Shown one piece after another: positions 30,935 through 35,355 of a stretch of DNA of 64,000 bases; position 1 is the stretch's first letter; each line of letters begins with the position of its first letter. The notes under the pieces were generated by a model that saw only the letters and a list, made by a program, of their open reading frames with translations, searched no databases and was not told where the DNA came from. The position numbers and the translations under genes were made by a program. This DNA is from Pseudomonas defluvii (GTDB lineage: Bacteria; Pseudomonadota; Gammaproteobacteria; Pseudomonadales; Pseudomonadaceae): contig NZ_MBPN01000013.1 in assembly GCF_001695625.1 (NCBI RefSeq), positions 1 through 64,000 on the forward strand, read 5' to 3'.

Positions 30935-30993
30935 GAGAGGCTCTCCTGGCAATCACAATGGTTAAAGTATGGTCGGTTTCAGGCTGATTGTTC

Positions 30994-31007
30994 TGGACTG
31001 AGATCAA
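30994..31007 (-). promoter_or_regulatory. Anr/FNR-like box for the universal stress gene
   Basis: The minus strand reads TTGATCTCAGTCCA, against TTGAT-N4-(A/G)TCAA: the left half is perfect and the right half has one mismatch. Its centre is about 41.5 bases upstream of an expected start near 30959, and a -10-like CATACT (30971-30966) is correctly placed, as in class II Anr promoters. Confidence 0.5.
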
Positions 31008-31044
31008 TCAGTTCGTCTTTAAGGCTCAATTAGGAACAACAGAT

Positions 31045-31482
31045 ATGACGGTCTGGCTGGTGGTGTCAATCCTTGCGCTGATTCTCAGCCCCATGGCGTG
31101 GCTGTTGCCGTCCCATCGGCAGAGTGGGCGCATGGCCTTGCGCATGGAGGCCCGGCGTATGGGGCTGGCCATGCAATTGTCGCCGCAAACCTGGCCGCAC
31201 TGGCTGCCGCAGGAGCCTCCCAGCACGTGTGCGCAGTACCATCGGGCCCGGCGCAAAGGGCGGGTGGACAGCTGGTGCTATTGGCAGGTCGAGGCCGGGC
31301 AGTGGCAGAATCAGTGGCGCGAACCCTGTACCGATCCTCACTTGCTGGAGCAGTTCACCAAGCTGCCCGATAGCGTCTACAAAGTCGAGGCGGGGCCGCA
31401 GATGATCGCGCTGTACTGGGGCGAGAAGGGGGAGTCGGCTGTATTGCAAGATATTGCCGAAGTGCTCCGCACCCTGGCGTGA
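31045..31482 (+). CDS. Small membrane-anchored protein of unknown function
   Basis: A 145-residue protein with one N-terminal membrane helix (MTVWLVVSILALILSPMAWLL), then a basic stretch and a Trp-rich soluble domain (WPHWLPQEPPS, DSWCYWQVEAGQWQNQW). I do not recognise a named family. The positive-inside rule puts the soluble part in the cytoplasm. ATG 31045 has AGGA about 9 bases upstream. It diverges from the universal stress gene and shares its 110-base control region. Confidence 0.78.
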   Translation: MTVWLVVSILALILSPMAWLLPSHRQSGRMALRMEARRMGLAMQLSPQTWPHWLPQEPPSTCAQYHRARRKGRVDSWCYWQVEAGQWQNQWREPCTDPHLLEQFTKLPDSVYKVEAGPQMIALYWGEKGESAVLQDIAEVLRTLA

Positions 31483-31491
31483 GCCCTCAAG

Positions 31492-31518
31492 CCCTTCAAG
31501 CCCTTCAAGCCCTTCAAG
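31492..31518. repeat. Three exact tandem copies of a 9-base word
   Basis: CCCTTCAAG is repeated three times without interruption, preceded by a one-base-shorter relative (CCCTCAAG). It begins just after the stop codon of the 31045-31482 gene. On the minus strand it lies directly beyond the T-run of the small-RNA terminator. Confidence 0.9.
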
Positions 31519-31548
31519 AAAAAAGCCCGATCCATTCGTGATCGGGCT
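31519..31548 (-). terminator. Terminator of the small-RNA candidate
   Basis: Stem 31524-31532 with 31540-31548 (9 bp, 7-base loop) followed on the minus strand by TTTTTT. On the plus strand the hairpin is followed by ACAGGCC, so it is directional. Confidence 0.88.
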
Positions 31549-31580
31549 ACAGGCCAGGCAGGCCGGCTATCGTTCGTGAT
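31519..31580 (-). ncRNA. Candidate small RNA, sigma-S-like promoter, intrinsic terminator
   Basis: On the minus strand a -10 element CTACACT (31593-31587), the sigma-S-preferred form with C at -13, would start RNA near 31580. About 30-40 bases later comes a perfect 9-bp hairpin, GATC-containing AGCCCGATC/GATCGGGCT, and six Ts (31524-31519). The product would be about 62 bases. It contains ATCACGAA twice, once before and once inside the terminator hairpin, and a short GGCC/GGCC hairpin. No ORF fits. The terminator has a T-run only on the minus strand, where no protein gene needs it. Start and size are inferred. Confidence 0.55.
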
Positions 31581-32000
31581 GGTTCGAGTGTAGCTGTGCT
31601 GTCGTCTCAGGCATGCACATTCTGATTTTTCTTTTCTCTCATACGCTGAATGTCCACTGATCGCGGCAGGGCTGCGACGACTATCGTTGATATGAATGAT
31701 GGTCGATCAACCTGACCGTGGTTTTCCTGTCGCCCAGGAAAAATGACCGGAAAGTCGCGTTTTCACGACACTTTTGTGCATTTGACAACCGAAAGGATTT
31801 CGGAGAATGTGTGCACACCCAATCAAACGGGCGTATGAATTGAGCGTTTGTATTACAAGAACGCGCTTACAGAATCCCGACTATCGCGCTGACGGGTGTG
31901 CCTGGAGCAAGGGTCCGATAAACGCAGGCTTGTGGCCTGTCGAACCTTTCTTCAGCGATCGGCGTGTACTGTTCAGCTTCCATATCGTGGAGATCAGTTG

Positions 32001-34148
32001 ATGATTTACGAAGGTAAAGCCATCACGGTTAAGGCTCTTGAAAGCGGCATCGTCGAACTGAAGTTCGACCTCAAGGGTGAGTCCGTCAACAAGTTCAACC
32101 GTCTTACCCTGAACGAACTGCGTCAGGCCGTGGACACTATCAAGGCCGATGCATCGATCAAGGGCGTAATTGTCAGCAGTGGCAAGGACGTGTTCATCGT
32201 CGGCGCGGATATCACCGAGTTTGTCGATAACTTCAAGCTGCCCGAGGCCGAACTGGTCGCCGGCAACCTGGAAGCCAACCGTATTTTCAGCGATTTCGAA
32301 GATCTGCCGGTGCCGACTGTGGCCGCGATCAACGGCATCGCCCTGGGTGGCGGCCTGGAAATGTGCCTGGCCGCGGACTACCGCGTCATGGCCAGCAGCG
32401 CCAAGATCGGCTTGCCTGAAGTCAAGCTGGGGATCTACCCGGGCTTTGGCGGTACGGTGCGTCTGCCGCGCCTGATCGGTGCCGACAACGCTATCGAGTG
32501 GATTGCCGCCGGCAAGGAAAACCGGGCTGAAGACGCGCTGAAAGTAGGGGCCGTCGATGCTGTCGTTGCGCCTGAACTGCTGCAGGCTGCGGCTCTGGAC
32601 CTGATCAAGCGTGCCATCAGTGGCGAGTTCGATCACAAGGCCAAGCGTCAGCCAAAACTGGACAAGCTCAAGCTCAATGCAATTGAGCAGATGATGTCCT
32701 TCGAAACCGCCAAGGGCTTCGTTGCGGGCCAGGCTGGCCCGAACTACCCGGCGCCGGTCGAAGCGATCAAGACCATTCAGAAAGCGGCCAACTTCGGGCG
32801 TGACAAGGCCCTGGAAGTCGAGGCTGCCGGCTTCGTCAAACTGGCCAAGACCTCGGTTGCCCAGAGCCTGATCGGCCTGTTCCTGAACGATCAGGAGCTC
32901 AAGCGCAAGGCCAAGGCCCATGACGAAATCGCTCGCGATGTGAAGCAGGCCGCGGTACTCGGCGCCGGCATCATGGGCGGCGGCATTGCCTACCAGTCGG
33001 CGGTCAAGGGTACGCCGATCCTGATGAAGGATATTCGCGAGGAAGCCATTCAACTGGGCTTGAACGAAGCCTCCAAGCTGCTCGGCAATCGGGTCGAAAA
33101 AGGCCGTCTGGCCCCGGCGAAAATGGCTGAAGCGCTGAACGCGATTCGCCCGACCTTGTCCTACGGCGACTTTGCCAACGTCGATATCATCGTCGAAGCC
33201 GTGGTCGAGAACCCGAAGGTCAAGCAAGCGGTGCTGGCTGAGGTAGAAGGTCAGGTGAAGGAGGATGCGATCCTGGCTTCCAACACATCGACCATTTCCA
33301 TCAACCTGCTGGCCAAGGCGCTCAAGCGTCCGGAAAACTTCGTCGGCATGCACTTCTTCAACCCGGTGCACATGATGCCGTTGGTCGAAGTCATCCGTGG
33401 CGAGAAGTCCAGTGATGTTGCCGTTGCCACCACCGTGGCCTACGCCAAGAAGATGGGCAAGAACCCGATCGTGGTCAACGATTGCCCGGGCTTCCTGGTC
33501 AACCGCGTACTGTTCCCTTACTTCGGTGGTTTCGCCAAGTTGGTCAGCGCCGGTGTCGACTTCGTTCGCATCGACAAGATCATGGAGAAGTTCGGCTGGC
33601 CAATGGGCCCTGCCTACCTCATGGACGTAGTGGGTATCGACACCGGCCACCACGGTCGTGACGTGATGGCCGAAGGCTTCCCTGATCGCATGAAGGACGA
33701 CCGTCGCTCGGCCGTCGATGTGCTGTATGAGGCCAAGCGCCTGGGCCAGAAAAATGGCAAGGGTTTCTATGCCTACGAGACCGACAAGCGCGGCAAGCCG
33801 AAGAAAGTCGCCGATGCATCGGTGCTGGAAGTGCTCAAGCCGATCATCTATGAACAGCGCGAGGTGAGCGACGAAGACATCATCAACTGGATGATGATCC
33901 CGCTGTGCCTGGAAACCGTGCGTTGCCTGGAAGATGGCATTGTCGAAACCGCTGCCGAAGCGGATATGGGCCTGGTCTACGGCATTGGTTTCCCTCCCTT
34001 CCGTGGTGGTGCGCTGCGCTACATCGACTCGATCGGGGTGGCTGAATTCGTTGCCCTGGCCGATAAGTACGCCGATCTGGGGCCGCTGTATCACCCCACC
34101 GCGAAGCTGCGTGAAATGGCCCAGAACGGCCAGAGCTTCTTCGGTTAA
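32001..34148 (+). CDS. fadB: Fatty acid oxidation complex subunit alpha FadB
   Basis: Multifunctional beta-oxidation enzyme: enoyl-CoA hydratase/isomerase and 3-hydroxyacyl-CoA dehydrogenase. The 715 residues match the family length exactly. The crotonase domain has GADITEF and catalytic glutamates E120 ([12 protein letters not shown]) and E140 (GLPEVKLG). The dehydrogenase domain begins with the NAD loop [14 protein letters not shown] near residue 319 and has the catalytic [18 protein letters not shown] 32001 has GGAG upstream and gives the standard start MIYEGKAI. fadA follows after 31 bases as an operon. PsrA, encoded in this window, is the known repressor of this operon in P. aeruginosa. 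Confidence 0.97.
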
Positions 34149-34164
34149 GCGCCCAACGATATAG

Positions 34165-35355
<1,191 letters not shown>

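Follow-up and report, generated by a model that had tools for sequence, protein, structure and literature searches.

A candidate small-RNA gene upstream of fadB in Pseudomonas, probably descended from the 3' end of an mRNA

The locus between orf164 and fadB

The window analysed here, a stretch of 64,000 nucleotides of Pseudomonas defluvii (contig NZ_MBPN01000013.1), contains a predicted small-RNA gene on the minus strand between orf164 and fadB (Table 1). The coding region on the far side is named fadB after the first-pass annotation and its protein family; orf164 has no match in Pfam or NCBIfam. Because both neighbours are plus-strand genes, no minus-strand protein gene is seen ending at the terminator, and a long minus-strand open reading frame (31881-34760) is antisense to fadB. 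The first-pass annotation had described a 9-bp terminator with six Ts facing away from protein genes, and CTACACT at a short-RNA distance upstream. These features are present as described, the six Ts being the tail plus the last T of the stem.

Table 1. Predicted small-RNA gene of the window and its neighbours
Feature	Position	Strand	Remarks
orf164	30988-31482	+	upstream neighbour, reads toward the small-RNA gene
Predicted small RNA, about 62 nt	31519-31580	-	from -10 element and terminator; 5' end inferred from the -10
Intrinsic terminator hairpin	31524-31548	-	9 pairs, loop of 7; tail TTTTT at 31523-31519
Invariant 13-mer GGCCTGCCTGGCC (RNA GGCCUGCCUGGCC)	31552-31564	-	predicted 4-bp hairpin, loop UGCCU; proposed pairing region
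-10 element CTACACT, preceded by G	31587-31593	-	sequence and conservation
fadB coding region	32001-34148	+	ATG at 32001; flanks the small-RNA gene on the other side

Neither the terminator nor the -10-like site exceeds chance when taken singly. The surrounding 5 kb hold three terminator-like sites, where shuffled versions of this stretch average 4.2 (sd 2.3), and the scan returned no sigma-70-type promoter in it. The 62-nt RNA folds with a z-score of -2.75 (as good in 3 of 200 shuffles), and no usable open reading frame was found in it. Conservation among relatives raises the locus well above chance. An inverted repeat, TTTTCCTG-5-CAGGAAAA (31722-31742), lies between the -10 element and fadB and is possibly an operator.

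Conservation, promoter element and distribution

With the 421-bp region as query, a match was obtained in 212 of 298 genus genomes. The comparison set, with fadB as the synteny anchor, was composed of 29 relatives' loci and 60 stretches chosen from the match listing; after one slice without fadB (L091) and a second copy of the window (L001) had been dropped, it held 89 fadB-upstream regions, window included. Among these 89 regions, which over-represent genomes similar to the window at the DNA level, 81 have an exact minus-strand 13-mer that was overlooked in the first-pass annotation; it is missing in eight, one of which has it with 2 mismatches. It lies just 5' of the terminator, whose CCCG..CGGG form is present on the same minus strand in 70/89 regions. 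Eleven regions hold the 13-mer without this terminator, most of them with T's and then another long hairpin, and in P. putida-type regions a different long hairpin stands 3' of the 13-mer. The orientation of the 13-mer relative to the terminator is always identical. The U tail, six T in the window, is mostly five among relatives.

Two further elements were noted in the 89 regions. A minus-strand block upstream of fadB, ATTCATACGCCCGTTTGAT (window about 31822-31852), recurs with at most 1 mismatch in 88 and is probably fadB's own control region. Between the orf164 stop codon and the terminator the window also has about four units of a 9-bp direct repeat, CCCTTCAAG (31484-31518); two consecutive units occur in one region, the window's own.

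An alignment was made from the 70 terminator regions after the exclusion of ten near-duplicates and of two regions with long gaps. In the resulting 58 distinct compact rows, all chosen for holding the 13-mer, its 13 columns are invariant, and the 5' part and the linker are variable. The consensus fold comprises a 4-bp hairpin, GGCC-UGCCU-GGCC, and the terminator, and a two-sided change is found in only one of its 11 pairs. Covariation is silent on the GGCC hairpin, neither for nor against it, since its four pairs never vary.

The -10 element is likewise conserved. Of the 81 regions with the 13-mer, 78 have CTANRCT upstream of it; 100 shuffles averaged 3.3 such regions and never exceeded 9 of 81, and a reverse-strand control gave 0/81. 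This result supports the first-pass prediction that a small-RNA gene with a sigma-S-type -10 and a length of about 62 nt lies on the minus strand. The three exceptions are L018, a 3'-end case in which a coding region reaches the module (13-mer plus terminator), L069 and L077. Distinct promoters number 72 (CTACGCT 34, CTACACT 20, CTAGGCT 15 and CTATGCT 3), and G or T precedes the element in 66 of them. The RpoS consensus is given as (T/G)CTATACT in the excerpted text of the RgsA paper (PMC2375449), and the window's GCTACACT differs from it by one mismatch; judged from this match to the motif, sigma-S control of the small RNA is plausible. The distance between 13-mer and -10 falls into a short class of 26-32 nt (25/72 distinct promoters; 29 in the window) and a long class of 54-108 (47/72). 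A further sequence, TTAGAAAAGTCGCCCTAATT, was found with at most 2 mismatches in 41/89 regions (e.g. L040 and L057); in the regions viewed it lies upstream of the long-spacing -10, and it may be an activator site.

The locus thus combines its own promoter element, an intrinsic terminator and a conserved RNA between them that encodes no protein, and it is likely to be a real, conserved small-RNA gene common to many Pseudomonas species.

Distribution was followed with a covariance model, R1, whose match in the window (47.8 bits) exists by construction, because the window's row is part of the model; elsewhere in the window genome the best score is 19.5 bits. At E <= 1e-7, R1 matches 214 of 298 genus genomes, with exactly one match in each. 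The 84 genomes without a match overstate absence, because in some of them the 13-mer is present but followed by a different 3' structure. Paralogues in the window genome were considered and rejected: the other three copies of the 13-mer appear to be coding and have no terminator. At the level of the family, R1 matches were returned in 105 of 148 genomes, most of which we read as chance terminators; 38 bits is reached by only 39 genomes, which include the 18 g12 genomes among the matches listed. The stand-alone form occurs in one genome with the label g9 (G423), and the other g9 genomes among the matches listed score at most 29.1 bits. At the level of the class, 52 of 185 genomes give a match at E <= 0.01, the best outside the window genome reaching 32.6 bits; these matches were rejected as true members and are read as chance terminators, because at none of the 19 loci returned does the match include the exact 13-mer. 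When named genomes were scanned for the exact pattern, 110 stretches were obtained, with fadB and orf164 both present in 65 and one of them in 11, under names that include P. putida, P. fluorescens, P. viridiflava, P. rhodesiae, P. monteilii and P. donghuensis; the 34 with neither gene are nearly all from other groups and apparently due to chance.

The first-pass annotation had proposed a comparison with Rfam, which includes an RgsA family. In Rfam 15, no family reaches its curated threshold in the window or across 10 relatives' loci. The highest sub-threshold scores were obtained for AgvB (20.7 bits, threshold 56), anti-hemB (17.6, threshold 49.5) and the Betaproteobacteria toxic small RNA (16.4, threshold 50), a weak likeness that comes from the shape of the terminator. 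RgsA, as described in excerpted text (PMC2375449), resembles the window locus in being a Pseudomonas small-RNA gene with a -10 that fits the RpoS consensus, but differs from it in sequence and place, and the main text of that paper contains none of the terms fadB, faoA and PA3014. Literature searches by the gene names of the locus and by topic, mostly at the level of listed records, returned no description of this RNA. A sequence search of the literature with the 13-mer or its complement matched three papers, the only Pseudomonas match among them being a primer for the fabA upstream fragment. A stress transcriptome of P. putida KT2440 with a list of small RNAs has been published (Bojanovic 2017, as cited in excerpted text of PMC7324555), and the small RNA may already stand in its table.

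A parent gene at fadB and a second carrier

In several g1 genomes and in g4, the module lies 3' of the stop codon of a gene of about 270 codons, at a distance of 14-26 nt in the loci measured. This minus-strand parent gene sits between fadB and the orf164 site, and its product has a signal-like N-terminus, without a Pfam match above cut-off or an NCBIfam match; one example is L297, 6859-7686. In g4 the module is present behind it with one base changed. A survey of 28 hand-chosen, lower-scoring g1 genomes found the parent gene in 20 and remnants of it in two (42% identity over 80 residues with a broken continuation, and 41% over 58 with a fragment). No trace was seen in four, the stand-alone form with its -10 was seen in one, and the last (L327, genome G118) has no module at fadB and a similar hairpin and terminator, with a mismatched 13-mer, elsewhere. 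The window genome has no homologue of the parent gene (best E 0.249), and no same-strand coding region sharing the terminator precedes the module there; such an arrangement exists in the 20 g1 genomes and in g4, g12 and g2 loci.

A FadB tree of 42 genomes, which we rooted on two g4 genomes, places parent-gene rows across many lineages, with the stand-alone rows carrying the -10 nested inside them; the nearest sisters of the latter are parent-gene rows (L347; L332 and L338). Parent gene and module are both absent from four rows. The parent-gene label requires 6 changes on this tree, 5 of them forced by well-supported branches, although such counts do not distinguish gain from loss. Loss is favoured by the remnants and by the fact that g4, g12, g2 and two g9 genomes all have the gene at this site. 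On this comparison of genomes, the small RNA of the window probably originated as the 3' tail of a protein gene's mRNA, the gene itself having since disappeared.

The module also has a second carrier. In 11 g12 loci and 1 g2 locus among those returned, it stands 3' of an unrelated DUF1329 gene, 5 and 10 nt past the stop codon in the two cases measured and with a different terminator. We take this carrier gene, from the neighbouring reading frames, to lie near rpoH and hemW. The parent gene is found at fadB in these groups without the module at its 3' end (18 of 18 g12, 2 of 2 g2 and 2 of 2 g9 genomes examined). None of the three DUF1329 genes of the window genome has a module within 150 nt.

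Small RNAs derived from mRNA 3' ends are known in P. aeruginosa, where FarS, SdhX and SkatA are examples (excerpted text of the review PMC9438474, from which the comparisons in this paragraph are drawn). As in those RNAs, the module of other lineages lies just past a stop codon and ends at the gene's terminator, and SdhX is likewise described as variable outside a short seed. Unlike them, the module of the window has no parent gene and has a promoter-like element of its own. A parallel in genomic location is offered by MalH and MicX, which occupy the same place and are processed from an mRNA in one bacterium and made from their own promoter in another. No common targets are known for that pair, which is called divergent, whereas in the present case the core is identical across contexts and remnants are visible.

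Two readings of different reach can be given. We consider it rather probable that the window encodes a single-copy small RNA that was once an mRNA 3' end, now stands alone under a sigma-S-type promoter and acts in trans through CCUGCCUGG. The wider reading is more tentative, and we give it somewhat less than even credence: that the small RNA outlives and changes its carrier, being the 3' end of one mRNA in some Pseudomonadaceae, the 3' end of an unrelated mRNA in others, and a stand-alone sigma-S-type gene after carrier decay, with about one copy per genome.

Mode of action and alternative readings

In the mechanism that we propose, the module would be the active unit. Where the parent gene is present, it would be released from the mRNA; where that gene is lost, as in the window, it would be made from its own promoter, RNA polymerase with sigma-S producing the RNA of about 62 nt in stationary phase or under stress. 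The least certain steps are the last ones, in which CCUGCCUGG would open from its short hairpin and base-pair in trans with the start-codon regions of mRNAs, Hfq probably being bound to the U tail. Terminators of Hfq-binding small RNAs are given seven or more T in the abstract of PMC5558911, and the tail of the window is shorter than that. A trans-acting RNA is suggested by the constraint on 13 bases, their fixed orientation to a terminator, the near single copy and the survival of carrier loss.

Searches for targets gave no recurring candidate. The first-pass annotation had placed the RNA in a stress-fatty-acid circuit, with ATCACGAA as seed and decoy. Two copies of this string (ATCACGAA/TTCGTGAT) do exist, at 31535-31542 and 31573-31580, and the description of one of them as part of the terminator stem holds in part, the copy at 31535-31542 having 3 bases in the stem and 5 in the loop. 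The circuit itself is unsupported, because ATCACGAA is not conserved and no pairing with fadB was found: core duplex energies against the fadB start region in 81 genomes, compared with those of shuffled cores, never gave p <= 0.05 (median p 0.83). The proximity of psrA was judged to be no evidence. For uspA, the whole window RNA gave 4 of 300 shuffles, and the core reached p <= 0.05 in 3 of 81 genomes, which is about chance, so that this candidate was rejected as well. The corresponding whole-RNA counts out of 300 shuffles were 9 for topA, 250 for fadA, 57 for orf164 and 247 for uup. The pattern CCAGGCAGG-N(3-11)-ATG, searched in 19 genomes, occurs 15-29 times per genome in the 13 genus genomes versus 0-3 times for the backward pattern, an excess that we read as codon usage because the repeated strings resemble opposite-strand coding sequence. 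In a coarse search, 20 start-site candidates were picked for start-like spacing among the matches listed; five open a frame of at least 80 residues, and the eight frames of at least 40 residues are mutually unlike. Two genomes share a similar 33-residue frame, under the cut of 40, which we take to be antisense.

Pairing through CCUGCCUGG is our leading guess, and its main rival is a protein-binding RNA whose invariant hairpin titrates or recruits an RNA-binding protein without pairing to any mRNA. Across the 58 rows neither the arms of the hairpin nor its loop vary, and there is no covariation, as expected for a hairpin recognised by protein; the negative target searches fit as well, but the hairpin lacks GGA, the motif of the Rsm type, and we know of no protein that binds its sequence. 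We regard this rival as unlikely, if worth keeping in mind. It is rather less probable still that the module is an mRNA 3'-end element without a role in trans, strengthening termination or protecting the 3' end of the preceding transcript. Such an element could well stand 5-26 nt past a stop codon and always before a hairpin, as it does in the cases measured; it would not be expected to persist with its own -10 where the parent gene is gone, or to be near single-copy rather than placed behind many genes.

Neither account treats the site as a directional terminator, shielding orf164 from antisense or divergent transcription from the fadB side. The uniform strand of the terminator in 70/89 regions, in many of them directly past the orf164 stop codon, agrees with such a role, which leaves the invariant 13-mer, the conserved -10 and the DUF1329 context unexplained and which we hold to be very unlikely. 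Even less credible is a DNA operator, GGCC-N5-GGCC, for a regulator of the minus-strand promoter: GGCC is self-complementary and the element is near the promoter, yet the asymmetric centre TGCCT is also invariant, the distance to the -10 varies from 26 to 108, and the orientation to the terminator is fixed, also at gene 3' ends far from fadB. A sigma-S/PsrA fatty-acid circuit in which ATCACGAA acts as both seed and decoy is the weakest reading and scarcely tenable, since the repeat, real in the window, is present twice in that one row of 58 and once in another, and no fadB pairing was found in the 81 genomes.

If it is transcribed, the RNA predicted here would represent a widely conserved Pseudomonas small-RNA family that is absent from Rfam 15. 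Relatives with an intact parent gene, with remnants or with an own promoter would then allow a direct test of how a 3'-end RNA becomes an independent gene, and they could show whether regulation switched to the general stress factor on independence. Should the carrier-changing reading prove true, these relatives would display, side by side, the steps from the tail of an mRNA to a small-RNA gene.
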